This document shows, piece after piece, positions 486-46,335 of a DNA stretch of 64,000 nucleotides; positions within the stretch are counted from its first letter, which is position 1; each line of letters starts with the position of its first letter. Source of the DNA: Cylindrotheca closterium (taxonomy: Eukaryota > Bacillariophyta > Bacillariophyceae > Bacillariales > Bacillariaceae); assembly GCA_933822405.4 (NCBI GenBank), contig CAKOGP040002036.1, positions 64,636 through 128,635 of the forward strand, read 5' to 3'. The position numbers and the translations under genes were made by a program. A model generated the notes under the pieces. The model made no database searches. It saw only the letters and a program-made list of their open reading frames with translations, and was not told the DNA's origin.

Positions 486-3050
486 CTAAACAGGTGTCGC
501 AGAAGGGCCACTGGATGGTGCCAAGGAGTCAGTTGGACCACTAGATGGTACCATTGACTTGGTCGGCGGCACGCTCTTGGTTGGAGCACCGGATGGTACC
601 ATTGATGGCAGCACAGAAGGCAATCGACTAGGAGCATTGGATGGAAGCCGACTGGGAGATGATGATGGCAATCTTGAAGGAGGATCCGTAGGACTCTTTG
701 TTGGAGTCCTCGTAGGTACTGGAGTAGGACGTCCAGTCGGTCGATCTGTAGGGGATGTCGAGGGGGTGGTAGATGGACTTTCCGATGGTGAGATGGTAGG
801 GGATTGAGAGGGTTTGGGAGTCGGCATGGAACTTGGACTCGCAGAAGGAGCCAAACTTGGAGATATACTCGGCGAGTTGGTTGGATCTCGATTCTGGACA
901 CCGACCACGGATAGCGACTGAAAGAGAGAGGTGGAAAGACCAACCTTTTCAACAAGCGTTGACGATAAAGTGTTGCCACCACCTCCCGATGCCCCATCCT
1001 CGTCGACTTCGGCAAACTCACCAAGAATATTTGCCAGAAGGGAAAGCACAGGGAAGATTCGTTCTTCGCCCCTCAGTGAGAGTTCCATGATGACAGTAAC
1101 AAGGTAGCAAGATGGATCGTCGGCAGGATTCTGCCTTGGGTTGTTTGGGCATGGTGACTTGGATGCTACAGTGTCAATCACTTTGGCATTCTGAATCACA
1201 TACCGAATTTCACTCTGATTGCTGTCTTGGAGCTCGCGAGAATGGCCAGTCGTAGTACTCTGAACTAGCGTCATGTCACTCTTTCCCTCGGAGCGCCGGA
1301 GCAGACTAGGCAAGGCATCCAACTTGAGACGACGATTAGACGTCGAATCTTCCAAACACCCGACCAAAAGAGGCAGTAAGGATACCATGATTTGATCCTG
1401 AAAGTCTTCGAGCCATTTTTCTTCTTGAGCAGAAGTCATTCTTGATAGGACCACATCAAAGTTAAAGTCAAAATCGAGGGTAATGGAGCCTGGACCAAGA
1501 AAGCCAACATCACCCGGTATCAATCCAGAAGGACGACCAGTGATAAAGGCTCGGCAGATGGCATCATTCGGAGGTGGATACTTGTACAACGGTGTCACCT
1601 CTGCGGTTGGAACCAAGGATGCTGCCTCGGTCAAGGCAGGAGTTGGACTGGGCGAAATTGGAATGGATTGTATATCCTTTCCACCATTGTTGCCTTGCGT
1701 TTCATTATCCGTGCTTTCGTCTTCCATGCCAAGTCCAGTGAACTTCATGACCAAATATGTAATGAGAATGGCCAATCCGATTCCAACCAATGCCAACACT
1801 ACACGAAACCATCGTTTCTGCCATGCTTGAACCCAACAAGAAGGCTTGGGAGCAGGAGCCATAGCATCACGAGTGCGTTGTTTATCATCCTGCTTTTGAT
1901 TGCTGGCAATCGTATCATCGTCCGTATAGTATTCGTCGGGAACTCCTCCAAATAATGGTGCAGGAGCCGTCATTGGAGCCGTTCTTCGTTTTTCACGAGA
2001 GGTGGCCGATCGGGCCGATCGTGAAAACAAGGACGCTGACGAGGAAATAAAGTCCTTGGCTCGTTGACGTTTGGACTTGCGACTCTTGCTCTTTCTCTTG
2101 TTGTTGCTATCTTTTCTCCGTTTGCTACTACTCCTTTTGCGTGTCCCGTGAGGTGATGAGCGGCGTCGACTGTCTCTTCTCGATCGACGTCTTCCAGAAT
2201 GACGATCGCCCAATTCACCACTTCTATCGGCTTCATGACCATCGTCATTGTCCACCGGGGGTCTGCTTCTGCTGCGATGGCGTGTATGACTGCGATTACG
2301 CCGACGAGAGTCTTCATTATCGCCACCGCCACCACTCTTGTCCTTTAGAGGTACCATTGTCGTGGCTGGTGTAGCTTCATCTTCTTCTCCCACAGTTCTC
2401 CGATGGCGAGAGGAGCCACTGCGACTACGTCTACGAGTTCGTTCGTCACCACCACTTGTATTCCCATCGTTCGATGGCAGCTTGAGTTCACCGCTGTTGT
2501 TGTTATCATCGGATCGTGACTTGTGACGTGTGCGGCTCCGACTTCGTGGCTTGGTTTCTGCATCTTCACCATCGGTAGCATCCTTGAGAGGAAGAAAGAC
2601 ATCTGTGTTTGGATTTCCCTCCTCTTTGGTGTGCTGATGACGTCGACTAGACCGTCTACTACTACCACTCTTGGAATAATTAGGACGAGCCGAAGAAGAG
2701 CTCTTTCGCGTCTCCTCGCCGCCTCTTGTGGGAAGGGTGAGTTCACCAGAGTTTTCAATATGATCCTCCTTACCATCGCCACCAGAATGATGATGATGTT
2801 GATGATGATGATTTTGCTCATCCCCTCCGTCCGTTCCAGACTTTCTTGGATGACGGTGGCTTTCTCTCCGACTCTTGCTGCGTCTTTCTTGAGGATATGG
2901 TTTTCCACCAGCATTTTCTGTTGCTGCTACTGCATCAGACGCGTTTGCTGTTGTTGTGGAAGTTGCCAGTGGTGATGGAGTTCCACCACCATCAGCTGGC
3001 GCGTCGACACCAGCTGCTGCTGGTTGAAACTCACTCGACCCCGTCGTCAT
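486..3050 (-). CDS. single-pass membrane protein, RS-rich cytoplasmic tail, novel ectodomain, PS-repeat stalk
   Basis: Intronless, 854 residues; the ATG at 3050 opens the frame. Residues 1-410 are highly charged and Ser/Arg/His/Asp-rich, with RS dipeptides and repeated modules marked by SGELxLP and PLKD. A single hydrophobic span at about 412-434 follows the basic stretch WQKRWFR. There is no N-terminal signal peptide, so I infer type II topology with the C-terminus outside. Residues about 488-718 hold the ectodomain shared with three other genes here: PPPNDAIC start, LLPLLVGC core, YVIQNAK, then a Cys pair. Residues 720-854 are PSxxPS-type repeats rich in Pro, Ser and Thr, typical of extended and probably O-glycosylated stalks in diatom surface proteins. 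The ectodomain is more divergent than in the 42.8/44.4 kb pair and has an insertion. Function unknown; a cell-surface or silicalemma role is inference. Confidence 0.85.
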   Translation of the reverse strand: MTTGSSEFQPAAAGVDAPADGGGTPSPLATSTTTANASDAVAATENAGGKPYPQERRSKSRRESHRHPRKSGTDGGDEQNHHHQHHHHSGGDGKEDHIENSGELTLPTRGGEETRKSSSSARPNYSKSGSSRRSSRRHQHTKEEGNPNTDVFLPLKDATDGEDAETKPRSRSRTRHKSRSDDNNNSGELKLPSNDGNTSGGDERTRRRSRSGSSRHRRTVGEEDEATPATTMVPLKDKSGGGGDNEDSRRRNRSHTRHRSRSRPPVDNDDGHEADRSGELGDRHSGRRRSRRDSRRRSSPHGTRKRSSSKRRKDSNNKRKSKSRKSKRQRAKDFISSSASLFSRSARSATSREKRRTAPMTAPAPLFGGVPDEYYTDDDTIASNQKQDDKQRTRDAMAPAPKPSCWVQAWQKRWFRVVLALVGIGLAILITYLVMKFTGLGMEDESTDNETQGNNGGKDIQSIPISPSPTPALTEAASLVPTAEVTPLYKYPPPNDAICRAFITGRPSGLIPGDVGFLGPGSITLDFDFNFDVVLSRMTSAQEEKWLEDFQDQIMVSLLPLLVGCLEDSTSNRRLKLDALPSLLRRSEGKSDMTLVQSTTTGHSRELQDSNQSEIRYVIQNAKVIDTVASKSPCPNNPRQNPADDPSCYLVTVIMELSLRGEERIFPVLSLLANILGEFAEVDEDGASGGGGNTLSSTLVEKVGLSTSLFQSLSVVGVQNRDPTNSPSISPSLAPSASPSSMPTPKPSQSPTISPSESPSTTPSTSPTDRPTGRPTPVPTRTPTKSPTDPPSRLPSSSPSRLPSNAPSRLPSVLPSMVPSGAPTKSVPPTKSMVPSSGPTDSLAPSSGPSATPV

Positions 3051-4108
3051 AATCTCACGTTAGTCCCTCTTATCACTGCTGGGAATATGATATTGTGATA
3101 AAAAAAAGTAAGACCAAGCTGTGTTGTTTGGATATGTGTTCCAATCCATCAAGATGAGAAAGGTGGAAGCCATCTCAATCTTGCATGACATCCGATTGCC
3201 TCCTCGAATTAGTTAGAGAAATATTTAGGATTTAGACTGCAACGGATGTTCTTCAAGTCAACTGACATTTTTCGATTTAAGAAAATACGGGATTTTATAT
3301 GAGACGCACCAGAAAATTGGGAACCGGCGAGGCGGCGGGCCTGCGAGGCTTTGGACCCTCGAAACCGCGATGATGCGAAACGATATATATTATAAAAAAT
3401 AATGAAGGAATCTGGTCCGAAGCCAGATTCAAGCCAGATGGTCAAAGCACCAGGCGTGTTGCCTACGGTAGATCTTGTCTTCTGCCTCGGGTGAAATTAA
3501 ATGCAGTAGTCCTAGGGATAAAGCTGAAGAGCTAGAATGGAAATCAGAAATGTAGGAGGGTTGACCCTGGAGGTTCGATACTTTCTAAAACAATTGTTTC
3601 GACATTTGCTATTTCTTGAGGATTGATTCGACCGCCTTCCTCCTCTTTTTCTTCCACATGTTTGTGTTTCATTCATTCATTCATACAAAATCGTTTGACA
3701 TCGTCTGTCCATTGCTCTAGTCGAAGCAATCCACACAATTCCTCCAGAATGACCTTCCATGAGACCCACTTTGGCCAAAAGGGTCATCCCATCAAAAAGT
3801 CATTTTGACACGGAAGGGAGACGTACCAGCGACGTACCACGTTTCGTAGGAAAATACACAACGGAAGTACGGAAGCAAACCCGCGCGGCGTGAAATGGAA
3901 CGAAAGATTTCTACCGCACGGCCAAAATTGGGGAGAGGTCTTCCTGCTATCTAAAATCTCATCGTATATCGCTTGCATTGTAGTTCCTTGCTCTGCTATC
4001 CAGACGACAAACAACGCTTCGAAGTATCTTTATCCTTCATTGGTCATTAGACATTAGTCATTCATCAGTCAGTTAAGCACGCTATTGAAGTGAAGTCGAT
4101 TATTCAAC
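3051..4108. other. intergenic region between divergent genes
   Basis: About 1.06 kb separates the minus-strand membrane protein gene from the plus-strand ankyrin gene, so it should contain both promoters. I see short direct copies of cattcattcattc near 3671 but no tRNA, no supported reading frame and no element I can name. Confidence 0.5.
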
Positions 4109-5374: not shown

Positions 5375-5706
5375 GACAAGATAGGACTAGACTGGACTAG
5401 AATGATTATTGTGATGATGTACTAACATTCAATAAAGATATATAGCTGTTAATTTCGTTGTTTAGCAATAGCTTATCGTAACTTCCTATACTGAACTAGA
5501 CTTGTACCTAATCCTGTATATTTGTAATTCAGAATGATGGATTCTGACTTTGGACATCCGATCAAACCTTCCATTTGAAACAAACCACTTTGTTGGATCA
5601 CACTCTGGTCCGTTCTACATACTGATGGAATGATAATACAGATGGAAGACATAATAGCACATATGATACAATAATATTTAATTCATCTACTATTATGTAC
5701 ACTCTC
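5375..5706. promoter_or_regulatory. shared 3' region of convergent genes; possible poly(A) signal
   Basis: The ankyrin gene (+) and kinase gene (-) converge here. An AATAAA lies at 5431-5436, 57 nt after the ankyrin stop, and is a plausible polyadenylation signal. No other feature is visible in this A/T-rich stretch. Confidence 0.4.
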
Positions 5707-8383
5707 CTACAATAGGTGTTTGCCGAGAAATATGCTACAAAACTCTTCAAAATCTACAACACCATTCTGTTGCAAGTCCATTGTAGCCAGCAAGGCTTCC
5801 ACATCGTCTTCCGTTAGAATCAAGTCATCCAAATGAGTCAACAAGAGTTCCTTGAGTTCTTCCTTTTTCAAGAGACCCGATTTATCCAAATCAATGGCAT
5901 CAAAGACCTTTCGGAGTCCCTGTTTGTCACGAGGAAAGCTCTTGTTGAACTTCAAGACAATTGCCCTTCGAAATTCTCTTCGAAGAGCCAGTTCACTCAA
6001 TGATTCCTTGATCCCTGGATTCTTTTGGAACAAGTCATGGGCCGTATCGCGGTGCATGGTCTTGATGGTACAACCTTCGTCAGCAATGCATTTGGCCAAG
6101 TCTCGGCGATTGTTCTTTTCCATCAAGAAGGATTGAATTCCAAAGACTTCGCCGGGCTTGACATCATACAACCGCTTGCCTTTTTTGGTCATGACATCAA
6201 TCATACCTTCGCATAACAAATGAAAGCCAGATACTTCGTCTCCATCCGTAAAGACAATATGATTCTTGGGCACTTTCGTTTCTTCATTCTTGGCATGATT
6301 GGCAAGAATATATTCGGCCCGTCCAAATTTGCGGGCATTGATCTTTTCTCGCATCTTGATGCCCAATTCGGAATCGGATCCAATCAAATACTTCAAAAAG
6401 TGCTCACGGTCAATTTGAATGACATGGACTGGAGTCATGGTGCGTAGGGTGGCCGATCGTTGTCTATTTTCATTCAATAGTCCACCCTCTCCACAGGTAT
6501 CCCCATGTTGCAAGACTGCTCTAAATCCATCCTTAGTGGATACATCAATCTTGCCCGAGTTGATAAAGTACATGTGGTGACCAATATCACCTTCTCGGTA
6601 CAAGACATGACCTGTCGGTAGGTACTTGCTGACCATGTTGTCTCCCAATAGGGTTGAAAATTCCGAGAGCGACATGTCATCGGCAGGAACCCCATCCGCA
6701 GGAGGCGGCCCCACAAGACCGGAGAGTGCGGCACCCGACACATCGTCCACTGTCAAAAATCCCTTGTCTTCCTTGTCCATTGACGAAAATGCTTTTTGAA
6801 ACAAGGATCCCTTGGTCTTGGTATGGCCGGCATCCGCAAACGACACCAATTGTTGAAAGACTTTGGTTTCAATCTTGGAACGGAACTTGCGAATTTTGGA
6901 CAAGCGCTTGTCGGAATTTTCAATCTTGCCCTCGGTCGCCGTGAGGCCTCGAATCCACGGATGTTGAATCAATTTGGAAGCTTCCACGCGTTTGGTAGGA
7001 TCCGGTTCGAGCAAGAGCGTCAACAATTGGATGGCCGATGGACTCAGATGCGAAATAAAGGGCTTGAGTTTGCGGGACTCCATAAGATTGATCTTTTTGT
7101 CATAGAGCCGCCGTAATTTGGCCTTGAGTTGTTCGTCCGTGGAATTTCCTTCTGGGTCCAATGGATGCAACCCCGTCAGCATAATGAACAAAATGATACC
7201 CAGTGCCCACATGTCCAGTGCCTTGGTGGGTGCTTGCTTGGTATCCAGACCTCGTTCGGGAGAATAATAGGCCACAGTTCCTGTCGAATTGCGCTCTTGG
7301 GTCGACGGAGGCAATGGTAGATCCACAAGTTCGGAACAACCAAAGTCGACCACCTTGATGATGGAACTTCTGTGGGTCTGACTGAGCATTAAGTTCTCGG
7401 GTTTCAACTGCAATATGATTGTGGCGACAATGAAATGATAATGTGATGGGTGGATGGATGGATGCATGCATGTGTTAGTGCCTATATATTCATGCATTCG
7501 ATAATGACGCATCCACCGATGACAATAGCTATGCCAACATGATCTTCGCCAACAATGTTAAACTTACATCTCCATGAACCAAGCCAATGCCATGCAAAAA
7601 GTTAATTGCCGACACTACTTCTCGCATCAATCGGCTGGCATCCAATTCGGAATACGCTCCATTTTCCACGAGACGATCAAATAGTTCTCCTCCATTAATC
7701 AAATCCAATATGAGCGCATAATGCTGAGCTTCATCAAAATTTTCGTGAAGGGAACAAATGTGTGGATGTCCCCCATGTTCCTTGATGTGAAGCAAGGCGC
7801 TCATTTCCCGTTGACAATCTTGACGATTGGTAAATTCCTTCCATATCTTCTTGATTGCCACTTGTTCTCCCGTCTGTTTGTGGCTTCCTAAAAAGACTTG
7901 ACCAAAGGCGCCTTCGCCAATGGGTGTTTTGGACTTTATTTTGTATATGGATTCCAAGGAAGTATCCTTGGTTTCTGACTGATGCATTCTTCTCAAAATA
8001 GAAGACAAGCCTTTGGAAAACAATGAGGAAGAAGGTTGGGAGGTTGCGGCATCGCATTGAGCAACATTCATGCTGCTGCTGCTGCTGTTCAGTGTTGATG
8101 TTGGTAACAAGGGAAACCGGGAGTACTGATGATGATAGGGCGACTGCAAATGAAGAGGATCTCTGTAATACACAGACAATAACAATCGCCGGTCTCCATC
8201 AACATCTTGTTGTTCTCCTCCTCCTCCTGCTCCTCCATTCTCTCCTTCTTCCGCGTTTGCATCTGCCTGAGGATCATGATGATGATGATGATGATGATGT
8301 TCCCAAGTGATTACAGAAGCAATTCCCGTGGCGATGGCAGCAGTGGCTCGTTTAGAAGCCCTTTGAGAGGCTTGTTGAAACAT
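5707..8383 (-). CDS. protein kinase with EF-hands and two cyclic-nucleotide-binding domains
   Basis: Exons on the minus strand are 8383-7568 and 7407-5707. The 160-nt intron (7408-7567) starts GTAAGT and ends CAG, and splicing restores the catalytic loop as HGD plus LKPEN. The product is 838 residues. Residues 1-140 are low complexity with a natural run of eight His. The kinase domain (about 150-422) has GEGAFGQV, VAIKK, HGDLKPEN and DFG (293-295). A degenerate EF-hand (DKEDKGFLTVDD) lies near 481. CNBD1 (about 528-640) has a phosphate-binding-type motif GEGGLLNENRQRSAT. CNBD2 (about 655-770) is degenerate at that motif. Two C-terminal EF-hands follow, DLDKSGLLKKEE and DLQQNGVVDFEE. The family relation is to CDPK/CaMK and PKG kinases, and dual control by calcium and cyclic nucleotide is inferred. 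The usual HRD is HGD here, although the catalytic Asp is kept. Confidence 0.93.
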
Positions 8384-11753: not shown

Positions 11754-14700
11754 ATGCCATCAGTAGATACAAACGAAGGATCTTCGCCAATCATCTCCGA
11801 GATGATGCCTTCCGTTGAAGACGATGGCGTCGTTGTTGGAGAACTTTCCAATTCAGCAACCGCACCGCAACGGAAATCAAAAAGGCGTGAAGGAAGGAGC
11901 AAACATTCCGAACGCAAATCAAAATACGGCTCAAAGTCTCGTTCCAAATCTCCTGACGACGATCTAGTACTGAGCGAACGCTCCGATCGTCATAGATCTC
12001 CTCACTCCTCGGACCACCATCGATCTAATCGCAGTAGATCGTCTAAAACTTCTGTTGATGCAAATTCCAAACAGCAGAAATCAAAAGAGAAAGCTGAAAT
12101 GCAAAAAGCTTCTCATCCTGGGGCTCAGTATGTTTCAAGCTCTGATCGCCGGGCCGATAGAAAAGCAGCGATGGGAACTCCCGGGGCTGAAAGAATTTCA
12201 AACTCTGATGGGGATGATGGCGCAAGAAAATCATCCAAGTATCGCAGCAAGACGAGACCGACGGAGCCGTCAGCGAGACCTGGGGCTACGAATGTGTCGA
12301 GCTCTGATCGTGATGATGGTACAAGAAAGTCATCCAAGTATAGCAAGACGAGGCAGAAGGGGGCGTCAGCGAATCCTGGGGCTACTCGTGTGACGAGCTC
12401 TGTTCAGGATGGCGGCGCAAGAAAAACATCCAAGTTTAGTAGGACGAGACATCAGGAACCGTCAGGGAATCCTGGGGCTCAGAGATTGAAGAGAGCTGAC
12501 AGGGATAGCACAAAATTGAAAGCATCACTTGATACCAAGCCAACCAAGGTCGAGGACGACATCCCTCTTCCTTCTTTGCATCCTGGGGCTACAGGCCGCG
12601 TGGATGAATTGGCGGAAGCAGTCGAGGCCACGACTACGCCTGATATGACGGCGGAGATCGAAGCTGCTCGTCAACAGGGAAGAGAAGAAGAACGAATTGC
12701 AAGGCGAGAAGAGGACGACCAGAAGATTGTTGTAGCTACTCCTGCACCAAAAAACAACAAGCGCCGGAAGTATGTTGCTGCTTTGTTCCTCTTTGCGGTT
12801 GCTACAGGAGTAATAACCTGGCTGTTGGTAAAAAAAGATGATACGAGCATTCAAAATAGAGTCATCTTTGATCCACCTACATTGGACGATTGTCTTGCCA
12901 TCTCCTTGGGACTAGAGACTGTCCGCCAAAATGGAACTACATCCAAATTGTTTGGAGTCGAGATGGACGTAACAGTCGCTTCTGGCATTGTAATGGAATT
13001 GCTTCAAGCCGAGCTTCGACTGAGAATACAGAGAAAGGTTCTACCACTGCTTGCTGGGTGTGACACCGAAGGCTCCATTTCGATTGAAAATAACATTTTC
13101 ATTGTGGAGAACGCTGTACTGAACGAGACCTCCGTTGACGACCCTATATCCTGCAGCTCCGACTCAATCGGGCTTTGTTCCTTTGTCTATCTGGGGCTTA
13201 ATATCTTTGCGAAGGACGAAGCTGTGTCGAGCGACGTACTGGTAGACCTCATCAAGGATGTATTTCAAGACAAAGGACTATTGGAACTCTTGGAGCTGCT
13301 TTCACCTGTGGAAAATATTGACTTCATCAAGGCATATGAAATCCTTCCATCGTATGCTCCGAGTTCAAGTCCATCCATCCAAGACAATGACAGTGGTTCG
13401 CCCTCCCGAGAAACCTGCGCCGCAATTGGCAATGGTACTGCTGTCTCCGGACGCGAAGACCTAGTTCAAGAGTACGAAATCATCATGGACGTCACTTTTG
13501 ATTCAGAGACTAAAGAAGAATCGCTGCTTGCCACAGAAATGGAAGAAAAGATTCAACGGATCTTGATGCCCTTATTAGCCGGCTGTACTGACAAAGTAAA
13601 CAACGAAAATAGGAACAAAGGCATTGTCAATGCGTTGGCTGATGTTGAGGCTGTGACGACTGACGAATGTTTGCCTGCTGCTGAAAGGCCATGCTCTCGC
13701 TATGTTGCTGATCTTGACCTCTACTTGAATGACATGGCATCGCCGACTCACTTGATAGAATCTATCAACACTGACCTTCGGGCTCTGCCGTTGCTTGAGA
13801 AGTTGGATTTGTTGCCACCCTTTAAACAAATCGACATTGTGAACATTTTGCAAAAGGAGACAATGTCGGCAAGTCCATCCCCATCTGGTAAGTATCAAAG
13901 TAAAGAGGTCTGCATACCTTTTGAATATCGACGAACCTCCTCAATCATCATCTTAAAATTCCGTCTTTGGCACCAGTCGGACCCCTCACTACCGCTGAGC
14001 CAACCAGTTCGCCAACGATACGGCAGACTTCTGTTCCAACGCGCCTTCTTACGACTCTGCCGGCTCCTGTTCCAACATTTCAACCTGTTGATGGTCATCC
14101 CACTTTGCAATTAACGCCACTTCCAACGTTTGAAGCCAGTCTATCACCATCGCAAATTCCTTCCAATACACCGACTGCTATGCCAACAACACAACCTGTG
14201 GTTGGTCCGACTTTGAAGCCTACGCCATTCCCAACGGAGGGGCCGTCAGTCTCCCTTTCGATGCAACCCAGTATATCTCCTTCGATCCATCCAACAGCAA
14301 ATCCTTCTAAGACACCTTCTGGCCAACCTTCTTTGTCCCCTTCAGCTGTGGAGTCTCGGCCACCTTCAACTCAGCCTTCCGTTCAACCTTCTTTGTCACC
14401 AACATCAACGTCATGCTTCCAAACTAGAGGAGAACTCATCAATATTGTTGGCGACTGGTTTGAACCATCACTGAAGGCATCAGTCGAGGCTAAGTACGGA
14501 CTAATAGGTAATTGGTGTTTTGGTGCAGGTGTGACAAATATGGAGGATCTGTTCAGGGATCGCGAGACTTTCAATGAAGACATTTCGAAATGGGATGTTT
14601 CTGCTGTGACTTCCATGAATGCAATATTTTACCAGGCAAGCTCGTTCAATGCTGATGTTTCATCATGGGATGTGTCTTCTGTCACGAACATGGGCTCTCT

Positions 14701-15535
14701 GTTCAATAGTGCATCGGCTTTCAATCAAGATTTGTCATCATGGAATGTTTCATCCGTAACAACAATGCAACAAATGTTCCAATTGGCGAGCGCTTTCAAT
14801 GGAGATATTTCATCATGGGATGTCTCCTCCGTAACAACAATGCAACAAATGTTCCAATTGGCGAGCGCTTTCAATGGAGATATTTCATCATGGGATGTTT
14901 CTGCCGTCAATATCATGACTGCAATGTTTTCCGAGGCACACTCTTTCAATGCTGATATTTCAGCGTGGGATGTGTCTTCTGTCACGGAGACTCGCTTGAT
15001 GTTCCATGGTGCATCGGCTTTCAATCAAAACTTGTCATGGGATGTTTCTTCGGTAACAACAATGAAACAAATGTTCTATCTGGCGAGCGCTTTCAATGGA
15101 GATATTTCATCATGGGATGTTTCATCTGTAACAACAATGCGACAAATGTTCCAAAGGGCAAGCGCTTTCAATGGAGATATTTCAACATGGAATGTTTCAT
15201 CGGTGACCACCATGCTATCAATGTTTTACGAGGCACTTTATTTCAATGGGGATATTTCATCATGGGATGTTTCTTCTGTCATGGTATTGGAGAGAATGTT
15301 TCTTGGCGCAGAATCCTTCAATCAAGACATATCATCATGGGATGTTTCTTCCGTAACATCCATGAACCGTCTACTCCTTGGGGCATCATCGTTCAATTAC
15401 AGTATTTGTGCATGGGGCTCACGCATTCCCAGCACTGTCAATGTTGACGCCGCATTTCGCGAAACGAGCTGCCCAACAATATCCGGTCCCAGCTTTACTT
15501 CAAATCCACCCGGTCCTTTTTGCCATGTTTGTTGA
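11754..15535 (+). CDS. membrane protein: RS/PGA-repeat tail, two novel ectodomains, PT stalk, DUF285 repeats
   Basis: Exons are 11754-13887 and 13977-15535. The 89-nt intron (GTAAGT..CCAG) joins in phase 1, giving 1230 residues. Residues 1-335 are basic and Ser/Arg-rich, with about five 33-residue repeats built on PGAxxxSSSD and RKSSKY. One membrane span lies at about 339-360. Two copies of the window's novel ectodomain follow: about 372-537 (FDPPTLDDC, VLPLLAGC) and 547-701 (MPLLAGC). Next is a Pro/Thr/Ser stalk (about 713-857). Residues about 858-1213 carry eleven 25-residue repeats of the type FNGDISSWDVSSVTTM, the BspA-like LRR of DUF285. In bacteria these repeats occur on surface lipoproteins and adhesins, and diatoms have expanded them. 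Repeat 7 lacks one residue (NQNLSWDVSS). I infer an outward-facing adhesion or recognition protein. Confidence 0.9.
14571..15400 (+). repeat. coding DUF285 repeat array, 75-bp unit
   Basis: There are eleven tandem 75-bp units encoding F-N-x-D-[IVL]-S-x-W-[DN]-V-S repeats. Units at 14756-14823 and 14831-14898 are identical over 68 bp, pointing to recent unit duplication or conversion. One unit is a codon short without a frameshift. Confidence 0.9.
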
Positions 15536-18863: not shown

Positions 18864-20573
18864 CTAGACCAATAGCAACATCTTTTGGGAACAAGGTAGA
18901 TCAAAACTGCTCGAAGCGTATCCCAAATACAAAATTTCATTTGAAAAGTCCCCTGGAAGTACAAAGTTCACATCCGGAACAGAACTACTCCCTCCACCAC
19001 CACTGCCCATTGGTCGTAGGTTCGTAGTAGCATGATTGTCCTCCAATATACTACTTGATCGATTTCTGGTTGGGCATTGTTGGCTGTAGTCCAATTGTGT
19101 GAGAAAACCCACACACTTCACCTCACAGGAGGATGTTACCGATACGGAAAGAGCAATCAACATTTCACCACTGCCTCTCTTACAATTTACATTGTAGCGC
19201 CCATCGATTCTTCCAGTCTTGGTTCGGTAGGTCTCGCCACCAAAGAAGGTCGACATAACCTCGGGGCTTAGGCAGTTTGTTGGAGCCGTAGTGAGGGCAA
19301 TCGAATCGGGTGTGGTGGGTGGCAAGGATGGAGGAGGAGGAGGAGTCAGCGTTGAACTATTTCCAGTCGAGGCAGGAGAGGATGCTTTGCTGTTTCCAAA
19401 AGGAAGCCAGTCTACTTTGTTTCGCAACACAAACCAGGCAGCTACCACTCCAGCTATCAAAATAAACGTCCAAACGAAACAGCAACGCCATCGCTTCCCA
19501 CCACAACAGCAACCCCGTTTAGGTTGTCGTTCCGTGTTTTCGCTGATCCGATTCTTTCGAAGCCGTTCCGTTTCCTCCTCCAGACTTTTCCGAACCTTTT
19601 CAGACCGTTCTTGGTCCTGTTGTTGTCTCCTTTGTGATGATCGAAGAGCTTCCAGCACATCATCATTGTCGTTGCCTCTTGTTTTATCGAGTATAGATGG
19701 ATGGGAGTACTGAGGATAGGTTGTTGGTTGGGAGTACTGCTGCGGATAGGGTGACGGTATCGGTCTTGGTCTGGCGTTGTGTGTCGATCTGGTGATATCA
19801 TTTGCTCCTGAAGCATGATCATCCTCATCATGTTGACGTTGACGAGCTCCTGGAGTAAAGGGTATCTGGTGATGTTGCCGATAGCTATATTCCAACTCGT
19901 CTAGAAAAGGTTCCATATTGTGATGAGCATGCGTTGGTACTAGATGATCTTCGTCATCATCATCATCATCATCATCCTCATCGTAAAAAGTCAAGGCCGC
20001 TACACTGCCTCCTCCACCACCATCATTCGTAGATTCTTGTTCACCCTCCTCGTCTGTGGCTGTGAACACTTGAATGCTTTGGTTCAGGATCATGCTTCTG
20101 TCTTCGGCGGTTGTGATACTACCATCACGACTGCTCACACTGTTCTTATGAGTTGGAAGAAATAAGCCTTGATTGTCACGAGGGAAATTTGGTGGATTCG
20201 ATTCGTAAGGTTTCAGTGATGATGATGATGCTGATAGTTGTTGTTTGTCTTCTTCTTCTTCTTCTTGTCGTCGTTGTCGTTCTTCAATTTCCATCAATAT
20301 GCGTCGTTGTTCGTAAATCATCTGTGGCGAAATGAAATTTCCGTTATTGCTATCACTACCAGTATCCAAAGTATAAGCTGAAGCTGAATCCTCATCCGAG
20401 GAAACCGCCCACGAAGGAAGTTGAAACTCTGACATGCGCAAGGATGGTCGAAAGACAGCACTACTGTTGGTACTACTACTAGCTTGTTCTTCATCAGCAG
20501 CATCATCTTCTCGTCGACGACGACGATGATGATAGTATTGGTCAAAAGGCTGATGGTGATGGTGACTGCTCAT
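18864..20573 (-). CDS. type II-like membrane protein with acidic cytoplasmic region and Cys-rich ectodomain
   Basis: Intronless, 569 residues from the ATG at 20573 (MSSHHHHQ). An upstream in-frame ATG at 20690 would add 39 residues, but these look unlike a signal peptide. Residues 1-340 are low complexity: His/Arg at the start, a run of Asp/Glu near 190-200, and a charged coiled-coil-like stretch (RRQQQDQERSEKVRKSLEEE) near 310-330. A Cys/Arg cluster (RGCCCGGKRWRCC) sits at the cytoplasmic edge of the single span (about 362-381) and could be palmitoylated. Outside are a PPPPPSLPPTTP linker and a compact Cys-containing domain (NCLSPEVMSTFFGGET, NVNCKRGSGEMLIALS). I do not recognise the ectodomain, and it is not the one shared by the other membrane proteins here. 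The layout is nevertheless similar. Confidence 0.8.
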   Translation of the reverse strand: MSSHHHHQPFDQYYHHRRRRREDDAADEEQASSSTNSSAVFRPSLRMSEFQLPSWAVSSDEDSASAYTLDTGSDSNNGNFISPQMIYEQRRILMEIEERQRRQEEEEEDKQQLSASSSSLKPYESNPPNFPRDNQGLFLPTHKNSVSSRDGSITTAEDRSMILNQSIQVFTATDEEGEQESTNDGGGGGSVAALTFYDEDDDDDDDDEDHLVPTHAHHNMEPFLDELEYSYRQHHQIPFTPGARQRQHDEDDHASGANDITRSTHNARPRPIPSPYPQQYSQPTTYPQYSHPSILDKTRGNDNDDVLEALRSSQRRQQQDQERSEKVRKSLEEETERLRKNRISENTERQPKRGCCCGGKRWRCCFVWTFILIAGVVAAWFVLRNKVDWLPFGNSKASSPASTGNSSTLTPPPPPSLPPTTPDSIALTTAPTNCLSPEVMSTFFGGETYRTKTGRIDGRYNVNCKRGSGEMLIALSVSVTSSCEVKCVGFLTQLDYSQQCPTRNRSSSILEDNHATTNLRPMGSGGGGSSSVPDVNFVLPGDFSNEILYLGYASSSFDLPCSQKMLLLV

Positions 20574-21230
20574 CTTCGTAGTGGCCAATGAGGATGTAAA
20601 GGGGATTGGATAATCAGCGCTGTACCTTATTGCGATAAATTCGGCCTTGGCATATAACCAGCAGATGCAATAAGATTCATCAGGTTTCATGCAATTTCTC
20701 GGAAGCTGCGATAATTATTTGTATCGTGTCAAATGCGGACCGCGGGTGTCCGTGATTGCCTTGATTATCGGACTTTCGAACAAATGTTCTTCGTACCTAC
20801 AGTTCGTGTACCACCACGTCTGTGGCACACACGGGAAAAAATCCATCATCAATGATAAAATCATCATGGTGATCAATCTTCACAATTAAAAAACCATAGC
20901 GGAAACGTTGTTGCGCATCCATCATGGATGGATGTTTCATCACCTTATTTAGTTAGACTCAAGGAAGACCAATTGGTCAAAGAAAACCGTCGATCCATCG
21001 TTATTTCGTTGAGTATTTCAGCCTATTTCGGAACCAAACTTTATATATTCAGCGAGGCCGTGTTTGGATCCACGATCATATATTTGCAAACTTCCAACAT
21101 TTTGCACGCTTCGTGACGAGTTGACGCTTGGAAACGTCTCACAAAAATCATTTTCCAAGAGGTTTTTGGTCTATTGCATTCATTCACATGACCTTATCTT
21201 TCATATCACACACCGTCACACACCACAAGA
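20574..21230. other. intergenic, no supported gene
   Basis: This spacer lies between the minus-strand membrane protein gene and the first repeat array. Short frames are present but none has coding character. Tandem ATGGATGGATG-type bits occur near 20923. Confidence 0.4.
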
Positions 21231-23452: not shown

Positions 23453-24852
23453 ATGATGATGATGATGATGATGAAAGTAGTTAACCTGCTCCCATTAGTA
23501 TTAGTGCTGGTAGTAGTAGTAGTAGCAGCAGCAGCAGCAGCCGATGCTGCAACAGCTCCAGAGGCTCCTGCCGATATGACATTCTTTGGTGAAGGTGCTT
23601 GTCGCGCCGAGTTGGATGGCTATCATGATTGGGCGGCTGCCAAGGACATTTATACAGTCCAAGCCTGCGACCTGCTTTGTAGAACAAATGATCCCAACAA
23701 AGGTCTGCGAGGCTTTGTTTTAGATGCCGAGTTCGATCATTGCATTTGTTACTTTGAGGATGGTCTGTCTCCGGGCGAAGGAGGAACTTGTCCACCAGCT
23801 TACACCCGTGACCTTACACCTGGCAATTGCAAGGTCACCAACAATGGAAAAGGTCCTGTGGATTCGTATGAGTCTCATTCGGAGGCTTATTGTTACGCTT
23901 ACAATGCCTTTCCCGGTTCTGAGAGCAATGGAGATCCTCATTGTGAGTATAGTAGTTGTCTTGTATTGTCATTGTATTGTCATTGTATTGTCATTGTATT
24001 GAAATATTTGAGTGTTTGAGTATTGTACGTACATTTGTGGATGTGTTTTACTCACACTTCACTTTACTTGTAACACACTTCACTTTCAACACAGTCCGCA
24101 CCTGGAAGAACGAACATTTCGAATTCCACGGACAATGCGATGTCGTCATGACCTCGGTCAAGAACTTTGTTGCTTCCGCCAACAGCAATCACGAAACAAT
24201 AACCTTGGACCTTGACATTCACCTTCGTACCAAAATGGTGCGTTACTGGAGTTACATTGAAAAGGCTGCCATTCGCATTGGCAATGATATTTTAGAAGTC
24301 GAAGGAATGCCTGATTTCTCTCTCAGCTATTGGATCAACTTTGAACACAAGGGCGAGTTGACGAATCTAGCAGGATTCCCAGTGTCCATTAATGAAAACA
24401 ATGACAAGTACACCATTCATTTGGACGCCATTTTTCCTGGACAAAGGATTGAAATCAAAACCTACAAGGAATTTGTCGGTGTCAAGATTATCGGTGCCAC
24501 ACAAGCCTCCTTTGGCAATGCCGTGGGTATCACTGGAGACTACAAGACTGGTCATACCTACGCACGTGATCAATCCACCATTCTTCATGATTTCAATCAG
24601 CTGGGCCAGGAATGGCAAGTCTTGCCCAGTGATGGCAGATTATTTCATGCCATGGCAGCTCCACAATTCCCAGAACATTGCTACCTTCCAGAAGATCCTC
24701 AAGGACAACGTCAACGTCGTTTGGACGAGTCTAGCATTACCGAAGATCAAGCCGAAGTGGCATGCTCGGGACTTTCGGATGACTTTGATCGCAAGGGTTG
24801 TGTCTACGACATAGTAGCTACTCAAGACTTGGGCATGGTGGGGGCCTACTAG
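23453..24852 (+). CDS. secreted GDPH/VWD-domain protein, left copy
   Basis: Exons are 23453-23942 and 24095-24852, giving 415 residues. The 152-nt intron (GTGAGT..ACAG) interrupts the codon right after the GDPH tetrapeptide (160-163) and contains a short tgtattgtcat repeat. Splicing restores GDPHFRTWKNEHFEFHGQCD. The N-terminus is a run of Met and then a strongly hydrophobic signal peptide (LLPLVLVLVVVVVAAAA). Residues about 40-155 are a Cys-rich module (ACRAEL, CDLLCR, CICYFEDG, YCYAYN) of PAN/WSC-like appearance. Residues 160-370 are VWD-like (HLRTKMVRYWSYIE, IRIGNDILEVEG, SFGNAVGITGDY). The conserved C-terminal segment starts RRLDESSITEDQAE. GDPH sites in mucin VWD domains self-cleave between Asp and Pro, and diatom adhesive-trail proteins carry the same motif. 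A role as extracellular adhesive is inferred. Confidence 0.9.
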
Positions 24853-32696: not shown

Positions 32697-34223
32697 TTAG
32701 AAGGCACCAGCCATGTCCATATCTTGGGTGGCCAAGATATCATAGACACAATCCTTGCGGTCCAAGGCATCCTTGAGTCCGGCACAGGCGGCTTCCGCTT
32801 GTTCCTCGGTAATGTTGGACTCGTTCAAACGACGTTGACGGTCTCCACGAGGATCTTCGGGCTCAATGCACAATTCTGGGAATTCGGGAGTGGAAGAGGT
32901 GCGGAAGTACTTCTTGTCGGATGGAAGTACTTGCCACTCGCGTCCGAAATCGGTAAAGTCATTCAACTCGGTGATTCCATCACGGGCAAGGGTCTTTCCA
33001 GTCTTGAAGTCTCCCAACATACCAACAGCGTTTCCAAAGGATTCAACGGTGGGCTTGACAAAGTCAACCTTGACGAATTCCTTGAAGGTGGAAAGGGCAA
33101 TCTTTTGTCCTGGGTACTTGGAACTCAAGTCGATTTCGATGCGGTTCTTAGTGATGGAAGTTCCTCGTTGAGAGAACATCTTCACGGGGAAACCAGCGAA
33201 TTCGGTAAGTTCGGCTTGGTACTCGTAGTTGACCCAGTAGTGAGTCTCGACATCAAACTCGGTAGCAGATCCTTCAATCTCAAGAATGTCATTTCCGATA
33301 CGAATCACAGCAGTCTTGATGTAACTCCAGTAACGGACAAGCTTGGTACGGATGTGAACATCAATTCCAAGTCCATTGGCAAATTCTTCATCCTTGGCAA
33401 GGACAAGGTCGCACTGTCCATGGTACTGGATGTGTTCGTCCTTCCAGGTCTTGAAGTGAGGATCGCCACCGCCACCAGGAGTTGGTGGAGGGTTGTTGTC
33501 GCCAACTGGTGCCGGAGTTGGGGCAATGGGGGCAGTGGGAGGTGGTCCGGAAGGAGGGGAGAGAATTGGGGGTTGACTGAGATCGCAAACATCGCAAGTT
33601 CCACCAGCCGGAGGGATCGTGAATGCCCAGGTACGCTCCTTTTTGGATTGTTCATCATCAGGTTTGCCTCCACCACATCTGTACTCATGGTTGAAGCAAT
33701 GGACCTCAGCTTCACACCCCACAGTAGGGTGAAAAGTAAAGTCGAACCGTTTTGGGTTGGGGTCTTCAATAACCGCGTCATTTCCATCCTTGAGAATCCA
33801 GTAAAGAGTGTCACCGGGCTTGCCCTCTTGGCACATCTTGGCTGTGTTGACTCCTCCGCACTTTCCACCAAAGATTTTACCATTGTTCTCTCCATCGAGA
33901 TCGCATTGGCCGTCAGGACCGCTTTGCCCCAATTGAGGGAGACCGGTAAGCTCATCGAACTTGGCGCAGCCAGTCTCAGTGTCGGACTGAGCACACATGT
34001 GACTAAAGTTATCATCCTTCTTTTGACAGTTTCCATGCTCGTTGGACATGTTTCCATCGATAATCATGCAAACTTCGACGGGACAGTCACCGTCAACACA
34101 GCTACTACTAGTCATGGTTTTGAGTTCAAAGTCAACGCAACTCTTTTGTTCATCACAGGTGTCTACTGGGGCAGCACTGACTGTGGCGAGGGCAACCAAC
34201 AAAATCGAACAGAAAAGCTTCAT
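32697..34223 (-). CDS. secreted GDPH/VWD-domain protein, right copy
   Basis: Intronless, 508 residues from the ATG at 34223. The frame is open further upstream, but only this Met starts a signal peptide (MKLFCSILLVALATVSAA). Residues about 20-225 are a Cys-rich module unlike that of the left copy (DTCDEQKSCVDFEL, CGGVNTAKMC, CEAEVHCFNHEYRC, TCDVCDLSQ). Residues 226-250 are a Pro-rich linker. GDPH is at 253-256, followed by a VWD-like domain (FKTWKDEHIQYHGQCD, RTKLVRYWSYIKTAV, SFGNAVGMLGDFKTG). The same C-terminal segment closes it (RRLNESNITEEQAEAAC, then ILATQDMDMAGAF). By eye more than half of the VWD and tail residues match the left copy, but the N-terminal modules differ and the intron after GDPH is absent. 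A secreted adhesive or mucin-like role is inferred. Confidence 0.9.
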   Translation of the reverse strand: MKLFCSILLVALATVSAAPVDTCDEQKSCVDFELKTMTSSSCVDGDCPVEVCMIIDGNMSNEHGNCQKKDDNFSHMCAQSDTETGCAKFDELTGLPQLGQSGPDGQCDLDGENNGKIFGGKCGGVNTAKMCQEGKPGDTLYWILKDGNDAVIEDPNPKRFDFTFHPTVGCEAEVHCFNHEYRCGGGKPDDEQSKKERTWAFTIPPAGGTCDVCDLSQPPILSPPSGPPPTAPIAPTPAPVGDNNPPPTPGGGGDPHFKTWKDEHIQYHGQCDLVLAKDEEFANGLGIDVHIRTKLVRYWSYIKTAVIRIGNDILEIEGSATEFDVETHYWVNYEYQAELTEFAGFPVKMFSQRGTSITKNRIEIDLSSKYPGQKIALSTFKEFVKVDFVKPTVESFGNAVGMLGDFKTGKTLARDGITELNDFTDFGREWQVLPSDKKYFRTSSTPEFPELCIEPEDPRGDRQRRLNESNITEEQAEAACAGLKDALDRKDCVYDILATQDMDMAGAF

Positions 34224-37903: not shown

Positions 37904-37940
37904 TATACTGTACGGTACTAAGTAGTAAGCTCATTCATTC

Positions 37941-38587: not shown

Positions 38588-38631
<44 letters not shown>

Positions 38632-39452: not shown

Positions 39453-39527
<75 letters not shown>

Positions 39528-41961: not shown

Positions 41962-42776
41962 TGATCATGATAATAATTCAATGAATGCCATCTGAGATAG
42001 TACGAAAATCAGGGGATGACCATGCCAACACCTTGACATGGCTTAATTTTTCGACTTTCAGTGCATTATTGATAACGAACATCTTCTTCAATTCTTGTCG
42101 CGATTCCGCAAAAGTGCGAGAGCACGATCGAGTGGCTGAAAAACAATAGACTGGCTCTGCCAAACTAGCATATAGAACAAATGTCTAGACAAGTACTATT
42201 CATTGAACGAACTGATTGATTCGCAAGATGCTGTGTACTCTAGGGATCCTTGACCCTATCAAGCGATACTCCATAGCTAACTCTTGATTTGGTGAGGGGA
42301 ATACCAGCGGGCGGCATAGTATCAGCATGCCAAGAAGGAGGAACAATCAACTTCTGATTGCTCCAAAAGCAAATGTTATGATGATGATTCTAGACAGCTG
42401 TAAGGCTTTGAAAGCAAGGACCATGAATCATGATGAGAACCGCATGTGATCGTGGCAAATTGAATTTGAACTACCATTGCTAGACCCAAGAGTAAAACAT
42501 AGATGGCAGTTGGTGTAAGTAATTCGATCCCGACGAAATCACAGAGCTTCCCGTAACGGCCGCCATAATTGGAAAAACAGAGCAATTATTGGTGCCACCT
42601 AAAACACACGTGCTTTCGACAAAGATTTTGCAAAAAAACGAAAGAATTTGGTGAGTCGAAACAGAAGTGTCACGCGTGGTCCATCATCGTCCAGAATCAC
42701 ATTCCAACAGATACCTGCCCAACACTTTGATTGACAAGTATCTCCATTCAGCTCAGCACAATAACCAGTAGTAGTC
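41962..42776. other. intergenic, no supported gene
   Basis: This 815-bp spacer precedes the Asp-tail membrane protein gene at 42777. Only short frames are seen and no repeat is obvious. Confidence 0.4.
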
Positions 42777-43877
42777 ATGGACAAGCAAGAAGAGTTTCAA
42801 GACGAGCTTGCCTCACTCAATTTCAACGGTGAACGAGAAACGAAGCCTCTTCATCGCAAACCGAAGTTTTGGATTCCGGTTGGAATCATAATTATTGCAA
42901 TCATAGTTACCATCGCTGTAACAGCCTCTGGTAGCTCTAGTAGCGTCGAATCGTCACCAGAGATTCTGCCTGGTTTGAGTGATGGGAGTAAGGATGGAAA
43001 CTTCAATTCTGTTCCAGCCCAACCCACATCATCCTCCCAAAAGACGAACCCTCCTACGATGCCTCCAACCACCAGTCCTCCTACAGAGGCTCCTCCTGCA
43101 GCTGTTGCCTACGATCCCCCTTCAGCAGCAGAATGCCAAGCGATTGCCCAAGGTGAAAGTGTAGCTGGACAATCTGGTATGATTCAACACAGCTTTCAGG
43201 TTCCAATGGATGTTGTCTTGGCTGATTCAAGCAATATCATTGATGAGTCGGCAATTGTCCAACAGCTACAAGACAAGGTCCAAACGAGGCTTATGCCGGA
43301 TATGGCCGGGTGTAACACCCGACGAAAGCTCCGAAGTGGATTGTCTACGATGGAACAGCACCATCCACATCGCCAACTGGATGATAATGCCTATGTTATT
43401 GCGAATGCAAAGTCACAAGTCGCGGCACAACTGATCGGTTGTCAAATGAGCAGTAGCTTGAACTGCATCCATGTTGTTGTGAGTTTGAATCTCCATTTGA
43501 AAGGAATTGAAACTACAGATGCTTTGATGAGATTGATCTCGGACACCTTTGCACCGCCGGAAGGAATGGTGAACAAGTTGGAGCTGAATGAACCCATTGT
43601 GGGGCTATGGATCAGCTCGGTGGCAACTTCGGCGCCAGTTGCTGCTCCGCCAACTCCACCAGCTCCAACGCCATTTCCTCCTGGACAAACGGCGCCTGGT
43701 GATGGGTTCACACCAATTCGATATGATCAAGATGATGATTTGTATGACGATTTGTATTATGATGATTTGTATGATGATGACGCTGATGATGACGCTGATG
43801 ATGATTTGTATGATGACGACGCTGATGATGATGATGATGTGTATGATGATGACGCTGATGATGATGATACCCTTTAA
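42777..43877 (+). CDS. Asp-tailed membrane protein with novel ectodomain, copy 1
   Basis: Intronless, 366 residues. A short cytoplasmic N-terminus (EEFQDELASLNF, then PLHRKPKFWIP) leads into one span at about 31-51. A Pro/Thr-rich linker follows, then the shared ectodomain (about 111-282): YDPPSAAECQAIAQGE, MDVVLAD, RLMPDMAGC, YVIANAK, LNCIHVVVSLNLHLKG. The four conserved Cys could form two disulfides. After a PTPFPPGQTAP linker the protein ends in an Asp/Tyr-rich tail of about 50 residues (units like LYDDDADDD). With the neighbour at 44389 it shares the cytoplasmic FQDELA box, the span, the domain and an acidic tail, so the two arose by tandem duplication. An acidic extracellular tail could bind calcium or polyamines, which is inference. 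Confidence 0.87.
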   Translation: MDKQEEFQDELASLNFNGERETKPLHRKPKFWIPVGIIIIAIIVTIAVTASGSSSSVESSPEILPGLSDGSKDGNFNSVPAQPTSSSQKTNPPTMPPTTSPPTEAPPAAVAYDPPSAAECQAIAQGESVAGQSGMIQHSFQVPMDVVLADSSNIIDESAIVQQLQDKVQTRLMPDMAGCNTRRKLRSGLSTMEQHHPHRQLDDNAYVIANAKSQVAAQLIGCQMSSSLNCIHVVVSLNLHLKGIETTDALMRLISDTFAPPEGMVNKLELNEPIVGLWISSVATSAPVAAPPTPPAPTPFPPGQTAPGDGFTPIRYDQDDDLYDDLYYDDLYDDDADDDADDDLYDDDADDDDDVYDDDADDDDTL

Positions 43878-44388
43878 TCACAACCATGTTCGCAAGAAGT
43901 GTGAGACTCAGACTCGATGCCTGTCGTCGTAAACTAATTTCATAGTATCCTAAAAGCGCATAGGACTAGACAGTACGTTTTAAAAATATTTTATTTCTGT
44001 CATCTGCTAGTCACTCATCTACTACGGTAGTTACCTCTTCAAACTGGTATGACATCACTACGATACTACCCTGCCGTCAATTTTGAAATTGCTTCTCGAG
44101 TTTTTGGGATTTCGAACGACCATGTGAATAAACCATAAGTGAGATATTCTGTTTTGCCGAAAATTTATCTAGGCTTTCGACGAAAATACTATTTGGCAAG
44201 AGCCATCACTAGGAAGAAATTATCTGCGCGACCATCAGTACGTCACGTATTTTGGTGACATTACCCGACCCACAACTTCTTGTAATAATATTTTTAAAAG
44301 CTTATATCTGTTGCGTGTTTGAAGGTTGACGCATACAGCAACAGGAGCAAAGGCATTCACATCTATTGTGCTAGCCTCTCACATCACA
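43878..44388. other. spacer between the tandem Asp-tail genes
   Basis: A 511-bp A/T-rich spacer containing the promoter of the second copy. An in-frame TTG at 44326 precedes the ATG at 44389 but would make an unlikely start. No other feature is seen. Confidence 0.4.
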
Positions 44389-46335
44389 ATGCCTGCGACG
44401 GAAGACGAATCACAATCAGTCATAGACTCTGAAAGCTTTCACAACAAATATGAATCCGACATCATGATCATGCGTCAAAGATCCGAAAGGTTTCAGGACG
44501 AGCTTGCACAACAAACGAAAGATCCCCGGCCAGAAGAAAAGAAACCAATATACAGAAAGCGACTTTTTTGGATCGCCAATGGCATTCTAGTTATTGGGTG
44601 CATAATTGCCATTGCCATTGCTGTCGCCGCAATTTCCAGAGAATCCTCAGCAACAAATGAATCATTTGGTGGCGAAGCTGGGAATCCTAATGAGTCGCCC
44701 CTTGGAGATCCTTCTGGTATCAATTTGCGACCAAGTACTAGCCCTGTAGAAGAGACTCCTAGCTATCAACCCAGTGGGCCTACGAACCCTCCTTCCAAAT
44801 CTCCTTTCTACGATCCCCCTTCCAAACAAGAATGTGAAGCAGTAGCCAAAGGAGAGACCTTGCCCCGAGAAGAAAACCTAATCCAGCACTCCTTCCAAAT
44901 ATCTATGGATTTAGCCTTGGCAAATGACACGAATCAACAGGCGGTGGTTGAAGAACTACAAGCTAAAATGCAAACTACACTTATGCCCATCATTATCGGA
45001 TGTGACATGGCGGCTACGATCCGACGGAAGATTATGAGTGTGTCATTTCATAAAAGTGTGGAACATCATCGACAGCTCATTATGTCACCCTATGTTATTG
45101 CCAATGCTCGAGCTGCTGTGGAAATGGACTCTGCCGCTTGCACAACAAACGGTTCCTCCAATTGTATCCATGTGATGGTCAACCTTGATTTACATTTGAA
45201 AGGATTCGAGCAGTGTGACGAAATATCAAATTTTGTATCTTCAGTGTTTGGACCAGAAGAAGGAATCGTAGAGCTTTTGGGTCTGGGACAGTCCGTAGAG
45301 GGAATGGCAATGGAATTAGCGGGATCTGAATGTGTTTCTCCTCAAACTAGTTTGCCCGCGTTGAGACCGAGTACAAAACCCTCTGTGCCTCCAACCATTG
45401 TGGCGTCGGCCAATCCTACAACAGCACCGGCGACATGGCCGACAACGGCAGAGCCAACAAAAATTGAAACGTCGCCGCCCAGCACACTTCCCACCAAGAC
45501 ACCATCATCATATCCTTCTGCCATTCCGACCATTACAGCTTCATCGAACCCAACGGCCGCTCCTGTCACGTGGCCAACAACAGAGGAGCCAACACGGTTT
45601 CCAACGCTGGCACCGAGCAAAGTTCCTTCCAAGGTCCCTACTAAAGCCCCTACAAACGTGCCAACATTGAAGCCTTCAATTTCCCCGACTCCTATTCCAA
45701 CCATAATGGTATCAGTAAACCCAACCTCGGCTCCTGTAGCATGGCCGACAACAGAGGAACCAACAAGGCTGCCGACACAAGTGCCTACAAAGGTTCCCAC
45801 TACTTCACCATCGTCAAAGCCGACAATTGCACCCACTCGCAATCCAACCTCCATGCCTACAGTGACCCCGATTCCACAACCCACACGAGTCCCAACTGAT
45901 CCGCCAACACCTGATCCAACAATATCTCCAACCCGTCCACCAACCCTAGTTCCAACGCTCCCACCTACTCCAGCAACAACTTTAGAGCCAACGGTAGCAT
46001 CTCCGCCAACTCCGCCACCGACACCTAGCCCAACGGCACCTCCCACTCCTCCGCTGACTCTATCGCCAACAGCAGCACCGCCACCAACATTCCTGCCGAC
46101 TCCTCCTCCCACTTCTCCTCCTACGCCACCGCCAACACGGCCTCCCACTCCTCCACCAACCTTGGTACTAGTTGATGATGATGACCAAGTAGGCGATGAT
46201 GATGATCAAGTAGACGATGATGATGATGATCAAATAGGTGATGATGATGACCAAGTAGGCGATGATGATGATGATCAAGTAGGTGATGATGATGATCTAG
46301 GAGGTGACGATGAGGGTGATGATGACGATTTCTAG
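44389..46335 (+). CDS. Asp-tailed membrane protein with novel ectodomain, copy 2
   Basis: Intronless, 648 residues from the ATG at 44389 (MPATEDESQS). The cytoplasmic part carries RFQDELAQQTKD and PIYRKRLFWIA before the span (about 60-82). The ectodomain (about 141-313) aligns closely with copy 1: YDPPSKQECEAVAKGE, IQHSFQISMDLALAND, TLMPIIIGC, YVIANARAAVE, NCIHVMVNLDLHLKG. It is followed by a long Pro/Thr/Ser stalk (about 314-593; units such as PTTAPATWPTTAEPT and PTPPPTPSPTAPPT) that copy 1 almost lacks. An Asp-rich tail then follows (about 594-648; units DDDDQVGDDD). The stalk length suggests the domain or tail must reach away from the membrane, for example across a wall layer. The stop lies 47 bp from the convergent gene. 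Confidence 0.88.
   Translation: MPATEDESQSVIDSESFHNKYESDIMIMRQRSERFQDELAQQTKDPRPEEKKPIYRKRLFWIANGILVIGCIIAIAIAVAAISRESSATNESFGGEAGNPNESPLGDPSGINLRPSTSPVEETPSYQPSGPTNPPSKSPFYDPPSKQECEAVAKGETLPREENLIQHSFQISMDLALANDTNQQAVVEELQAKMQTTLMPIIIGCDMAATIRRKIMSVSFHKSVEHHRQLIMSPYVIANARAAVEMDSAACTTNGSSNCIHVMVNLDLHLKGFEQCDEISNFVSSVFGPEEGIVELLGLGQSVEGMAMELAGSECVSPQTSLPALRPSTKPSVPPTIVASANPTTAPATWPTTAEPTKIETSPPSTLPTKTPSSYPSAIPTITASSNPTAAPVTWPTTEEPTRFPTLAPSKVPSKVPTKAPTNVPTLKPSISPTPIPTIMVSVNPTSAPVAWPTTEEPTRLPTQVPTKVPTTSPSSKPTIAPTRNPTSMPTVTPIPQPTRVPTDPPTPDPTISPTRPPTLVPTLPPTPATTLEPTVASPPTPPPTPSPTAPPTPPLTLSPTAAPPPTFLPTPPPTSPPTPPPTRPPTPPPTLVLVDDDDQVGDDDDQVDDDDDDQIGDDDDQVGDDDDDQVGDDDDLGGDDEGDDDDF

Follow-up and report, generated by a model that had tools for sequence, protein, structure and literature searches.

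Raphid diatoms glide over surfaces, stick to them and foul them, and of their surface proteins with a membrane anchor, few are understood. The closest described counterparts of the ectodomain analyzed here are the SEA domains of mucins, Notch and Gpr126 (ADGRG6). According to the available text of PMC6954182, the SEA domains of Mucin-1, Notch2 and human GPR126 are cut in the loop between strands 2 and 3, and cleaved SEA domains stay together until they are pulled; those of zebrafish Gpr126 and Notch are described there as lacking self-cutting. A second point of comparison is the tripeptide R-X-L of diatom proteins. Its removal has been reported in silaffins and proposed for Silicanin-1 (Sin1) (PMC5525289, in the part available). 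The accessible part of the paper on the SAPs states that a role of R-X-L in processing is yet to be proven and that R-X-L sites had until then been found solely in biosilica-associated proteins (PMC5647440). In Sin1 and the SAPs the tripeptide follows a signal peptide, and SAP1 and SAP3 harbor a second R-X-L further on (PMC5525289, PMC5647440, same excerpts). Finally, the proteins of diatom adhesive trails and the GDPH/vWD proteins form a large raphid-diatom family that is thought to act at surfaces, and a G-D-P-H box has been reported for diatom adhesive proteins (PMC7335047, available sections).

The family described here was traced from a stretch of 64 kb from Cylindrotheca closterium, referred to as the window. 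This species is a pennate diatom of the Bacillariaceae (taxid 2856), in agreement with the diatom origin assumed by the original prediction, which had claimed five related ectodomain copies in four membrane-protein genes. A hidden Markov model (HMM) trained on 26 copies from elsewhere in the genome recovered all five. It detected no sixth copy in window ORFs of at least 80 residues, and 20 shuffles of each of the 217 ORFs of this size yielded no match at E values up to 10. Leave-one-out scores among the five window copies ranged from 24.3 to 150.6 bits, compared with at most 10.2 bits in 500 shuffles each. The computed layout of the genes is as follows.

486..3050, minus strand: gene 1 (854 aa), with a basic, Ser-rich tail, a single predicted span, the domain and a P/S/T stalk
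1746..1802, minus strand: predicted membrane span of gene 1 (hydropathy)
885..1580, minus strand: domain copy g1, the longest of the five (HMM 65.7 bits, partial profile coverage)
1230..1238, minus strand: R-E-L tripeptide (R-X-L type) of gene 1 in the loop before strand 2
11754..15535, plus strand: gene 2 (1230 aa once the predicted intron is removed), with a tail, a span, the domain in two copies, a P/S/T stalk and a DUF285 head
12777..12830, plus strand: predicted membrane span of gene 2 (hydropathy)
12867..13343, plus strand: domain copy a of gene 2 (g2a), short loop without R-X-L (HMM 73.1 bits)
13395..13859, plus strand: domain copy b of gene 2 (g2b), short loop without R-X-L (HMM 98.0 bits)
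13371-13862, plus strand: region of the g2b structure model m5bb222e0b71c
13888..13976, plus strand: predicted GT-AG intron of gene 2, 89 bases, stalk stays in frame
14726..15037, plus strand: head of gene 2, best of four DUF285/BspA stretches (residues 183-286 of 14180-15532)
42777..43877, plus strand: gene 3 (366 aa), with a short tail, a span, the domain, a short stalk and an acidic tail
42870..42926, plus strand: predicted membrane span of gene 3 (hydropathy)
43110..43631, plus strand: domain copy g3 (HMM 151.9 bits)
43083-43643, plus strand: region of the g3 structure model m154a0de03f72
43323..43331, plus strand: R-K-L of g3, model residues 81-83, in a short helix (79-84) that opens the stretch between C2 and strand 2
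43371..43379, plus strand: R-Q-L of g3, model residues 97-99, in low-confidence coil directly before strand 2
44389..46335, plus strand: gene 4 (648 aa), with a tail, a span, the domain, a long P/S/T stalk and an acidic tail
44566..44634, plus strand: predicted membrane span of gene 4 (hydropathy)
44809..45330, plus strand: domain copy g4 (HMM 149.6 bits)
45064..45078, plus strand: H-H-R-Q-L of gene 4, which includes an R-X-L before strand 2

Genes 3 and 4 have the open reading frames described earlier. The orientation of gene 1 had to be corrected to the minus strand, and gene 2 is not a single open reading frame: its raw translation meets stops, and splicing out the predicted intron gives 1230 residues. 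The head of gene 2 was assigned to DUF285/BspA (Pfam, E 6.6e-124) and is the sole DUF285 head among the window genes. A P/S/T stalk or an acidic tail follows the domain, as had been claimed. The proposed motifs hold in part. The domain starts with PP and then a cysteine, at a spacing of PP-x(4)-C and not x(3), and g2b lacks the PP; the [LM][ML]P-type GC core opens with V-L in g2a; and the Y-V-I-x-N-A box is literal in g1, g3 and g4 only, reading FIVENA in g2a and KGIVNA in g2b. A single predicted span is indeed found beside the domain. Its position "just outside" the span is strictly true for gene 2 only, because the two are separated by 13 residues there (by hydropathy) and by 56, 58 and 63 residues in genes 1, 4 and 3, respectively.

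The original prediction knew of no named family for this domain, and this holds. Sequence searches with 18 aligned members gave no significant match in Pfam, NCBIfam or PDB (best E values 0.11, 0.054 and 0.77, respectively), and membership in a named family was rejected on these grounds. The SEA model PF01390 matched none of the 18 members at E values up to 10, in a search whose filters drop weak matches; across the genome it gave one match, under the cut-off, with about 56 kb separating it from the closest copy listed for that contig. The domain is not named in the open-licence literature searched.

Structure models were computed with AlphaFold2 for the two divergent copies g3 and g2b (pLDDT 86 and 85, pTM 0.82). 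Although the two models come from overlapping alignments, both show a near-identical predicted ferredoxin-like fold of the order beta-alpha-beta-beta-alpha-beta, and not two unrelated folds. When structures were ranked by Z, SEA domains came out on top, yet level with unrelated folds. Foldseek alone found nothing for the g3 model at E ≤0.001 and listed no SEA domain among its best 50 matches, which is not evidence against a SEA-like fold. The domain is probably SEA-like, and it would share with the SEA domains of mucins, Notch and Gpr126 a ferredoxin-like sandwich as ectodomain near Ser/Thr-rich stalks. It differs from them in the absence of a PF01390 match, in its four conserved cysteines and in the lack of the GSVVV motif, which occurs in none of 95 full-length copies; the looser pattern GS[VI][VIA] is found in none of the 95 between strands 2 and 3 and in three anywhere in the domain. 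Cysteine occupies the four columns in 94, 95, 94 and 95 of the 95 copies, and in the C3 exception, L071, a cysteine lies three residues downstream. Two disulfides are plausible from this pattern. Very probably, the copies represent an uncatalogued, presumably SEA-like domain family of membrane-anchored proteins.

The family is not confined to the window. With gene 3 as query, at least 110 matches were found in the window's own assembly of 47.6 Mb. A compact copy as query located at least 150 genomic places, with every place scored being a match, and two further queries located at least 120 and at least 131. These counts are lower bounds of places and not of genes, as one gene may hold two or three; some places are duplicated identically on two contigs (C321 and C570), and some are interrupted by stops. 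About twelve places were counted by eye on a contig of 90 kb (C571), which is denser per base than the window. The description of the family as locally expanded therefore does not fit, and local expansion as the main story was rejected, since copies are spread across the whole genome. Among the window copies, g3 and g4 are the only pair that resembles local sisters (45% identity over 167 columns, tree support 91/54). Outside the window, 80 stretches were sampled, 20 long ones from the top matches of gene 3 and 60 short ones picked by hand from the match lists, so that the sample is not random; loci L001-L008 were excluded as duplicates. The 95 full-length copies analyzed remained after nine partial copies had been dropped. 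At L010, L013, L020 and L027, broken partial copies lie next to intact ones and are either pseudogenes or intron-split genes. One ORF (L085, C170:17500-19300) harbors three domain copies, all without R-X-L in the loop discussed below. The domain core is under purifying selection: dN/dS had a median of 0.23 and a maximum of 0.64 for 71 of 72 pairs with more than 60% identity, pairs that overlap. Protein searches seeded on shared five-letter words, two of which covered about 8000 candidates, yielded at least 3, 11 and 2 proteins, and the named matches were all from C. closterium. Among them, P0004 is 100% identical to one copy, and P0010 was assigned to the species by its taxid (2856). P0010 comes from an entry of the transcriptome project MMETSP; the family is thus probably transcribed.

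Topology and architecture were assessed in 29 domain ORFs, comprising 20 long loci (L009-L028) and the window. Between the end of the most hydrophobic stretch and the domain lie 13-63 residues. The N-terminal side of this span carries the more positive net charge in 26 of the 29 ORFs, both sides are equal in two and the bias is opposite in one. A second hydrophobic stretch exceeded a crude threshold in seven ORFs, none of them a window gene. The charge bias and the single stretch suggest an N-in, C-out orientation, i.e. a type II topology with the tail in the cytosol and the C-terminal side outside or in the secretory lumen. The tails, of 30-658 residues, could be delimited in the 28 ORFs with a start before the span; the R-X-L tripeptides counted below lie beyond them, inside the domain.

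The loop between C2 and strand 2 has a median length of 19 residues (range 5-51). It contains R-X-L in 71 of 95 copies, including g1, g3 and g4 in the window, against 30.9 copies on average after shuffling within each loop. The narrower pattern R[RQHEYKN]L, whose middle residues were chosen post hoc after inspection of the sequences, occurs in 69 of 95 loops versus 15.3 on shuffling. The tripeptide depends on loop length, being present in 3 of 19 loops shorter than 14 residues and in 68 of 76 longer ones. Elsewhere in the domain it is found in the N part of 25 copies and the C part of 23, both parts being longer than the loop. In the g3 model, residues 88-96 have pLDDT values below 50 and adjoin the second R-X-L. 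Basic pairs are also frequent in the loop ([RK]R in 59 of 95 copies, furin-type R-x-[KR]-R in nine), so that a kexin- or furin-type protease acting there is also conceivable.

A predicted shape that resembles SEA, combined with a frequent putative cut site in a floppy loop, may point to a releasable clasp, and from this we infer how the proteins might work. They would be type II single-pass proteins that keep a mostly basic, Ser-rich N-terminal tail in the cytosol and expose the domain, usually a mucin-like P/S/T stalk and then a variable head or acidic tail to the outside or the secretory lumen. A protease would cut the protein in the flexible loop with R-X-L that leads from helix 1 to strand 2. 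With presumed disulfides C1-C2 and C3-C4, neither of which would bridge the two pieces, these would remain joined through the sheet, and a pull on the head could release it from the membrane. As in SEA domains the cut would be intradomain, here predicted only, and it would lie before strand 2, whereas SEA domains are cut between strands 2 and 3. As a whole, this cleavable clasp as a releasable base for interchangeable heads is assigned a probability of roughly 0.4.

The domain might instead remain uncut and act as a structural spacer or a pairing module, keeping stalk and head off the membrane, with R-X-L no more than part of a basic, exposed loop. In accordance with this, all 24 copies lacking R-X-L in the loop retain the four cysteines, and g2b, one of the two window copies without it (g2a, g2b), yields nearly the same confident predicted fold. 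However, R-X-L exceeds shuffles that keep the loop composition, and does so also among 59 copies with less than 50% identity to each other (47 copies with R-X-L versus 21.0 shuffled; 45 with R[RQHEYKN]L versus 10.5). Moreover, the leucine of the last loop R-X-L lies 7-12 residues before the asparagine of the NA box in 57 of the 71 copies. This renders a mere spacer somewhat unlikely.

Beyond the stalk the proteins vary. A Pfam scan of 23 of the 29 ORFs assigned the following heads.

DUF285 heads: gene 2 of the window, L009, L013, L024 and L028
Xlink heads: L012, L016 and L015 (L015 slightly below the cut-off)
DUF7640 heads: L017 once and L011 twice (one of those of L011 below the cut-off)
WSC head: L021 twice (one below the cut-off)
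Ricin B head: L018

For the remaining scanned ORFs no head could be assigned, or they carry an acidic tail or may continue in an unread exon. LRR models were listed for two proteins, P0010 and P0011. With BspA-like DUF285 surface proteins the family has only the head in common, as the core itself has no DUF285 match (Pfam, 18 aligned members). On a tree of 28 cores, DUF285 requires four changes, at least two of which are forced by well-supported branches, and L024 with its DUF285 head lies inside a supported group with DUF7640 heads (99/97). Heads thus seem to have been swapped among the cores of the family, although eleven of 25 inner branches are weak and the tree still shows clusters of head types.

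Alternatively, the proteins might reside in the membrane of the silica deposition vesicle, undergo R-X-L processing in the manner of Sin1 and the SAPs, and keep acidic tails and stalks in the wall. Like Silicanin-1, SAPs and silaffins, they are diatom membrane or secretory proteins with a short R-X-L in a part that is probably lumenal, and in the available text of PMC5647440 such sites belonged to biosilica-associated proteins only. The single predicted span of the window genes and the acidic tails of g3, g4 and L019 are also compatible with this role. However, R-X-L follows a signal peptide in Sin1 and the SAPs (PMC5525289, PMC5647440, as far as available) and here lies inside a folded domain after what is probably a type II signal anchor, and heads such as WSC, ricin B and BspA repeats would rather suggest binding of sugars or surfaces. 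A function in silica formation is therefore improbable.

That the proteins are receptors, whose variable heads sense ligands such as mates or bacteria and whose cleavage frees the basic cytosolic tail for signalling, would suit the diverse heads on one core and the motif P-G-[AV] of the tails (52 occurrences in 21 of 28 tails, related tails being treated individually, versus 3.3 on shuffling, maximum 8 in 300 shuffles), but is very improbable, as no kinase or other enzyme-type signalling domain exceeded the Pfam cut-off in 23 of the 29 ORFs. By eye, the tail motif often reads [RK]-A-[ST]-x-P-G-[AV] (L009-L028 and window).

Other window genes encode further proteins of note. Two proteins with a literal G-D-P-H box were seen (32697-34223, minus strand, and 23453-24852, plus strand); Pfam gave only a weak match to the MUC4 C8-3 domain (E 0.012) or nothing at E 0.001. 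No vWD domain was listed in the Pfam scans of 23 ORFs of the ectodomain family, which resembles the adhesive trail proteins in being a large raphid-diatom family with a possible role at the surface. The gene at 18864-20690 (minus strand) encodes a protein without Pfam match in which a single clear hydrophobic span is visible by eye and the ectodomain bears cysteines; besides the gene itself, phmmer found three weak matches (2.6e-6, 1.5e-4 and 0.0066), and on these a common ectodomain of this gene and the family is not claimed. At 5707-8383 (minus strand), two ORFs, which an intron probably separates, each hold one half of a protein kinase domain; cyclic-nucleotide-binding and EF-hand domains follow. 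A transglutaminase-core protein with a long Gly/Pro/Gln-rich tail is found at 60549-63602 (plus strand).

The original prediction is partly supported. It correctly described a shared, unassigned ectodomain with four conserved cysteines, but it did not include the head domains, the loop with R-X-L, the predicted resemblance to SEA or the motif of the cytosolic tails. For the cleavable clasp, the most far-reaching version is an origin in diatoms, independent of animals and without sequence kinship that could be detected, of a protease-nicked SEA-like mechanical clasp that relies on the diatoms' own R-X-L processing, has its cut one connection from that of SEA and serves as the common base of about 150 copies with interchangeable adhesive heads; this is unlikely. 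R-X-L processing would then extend to a class of proteins not known to be in silica. The family bears on the question of a repeated origin of SEA-type mechanical clasps. A domain present at about 150 places, with a putative cut site and swappable heads, may provide a handle on how these cells grip and release surfaces.
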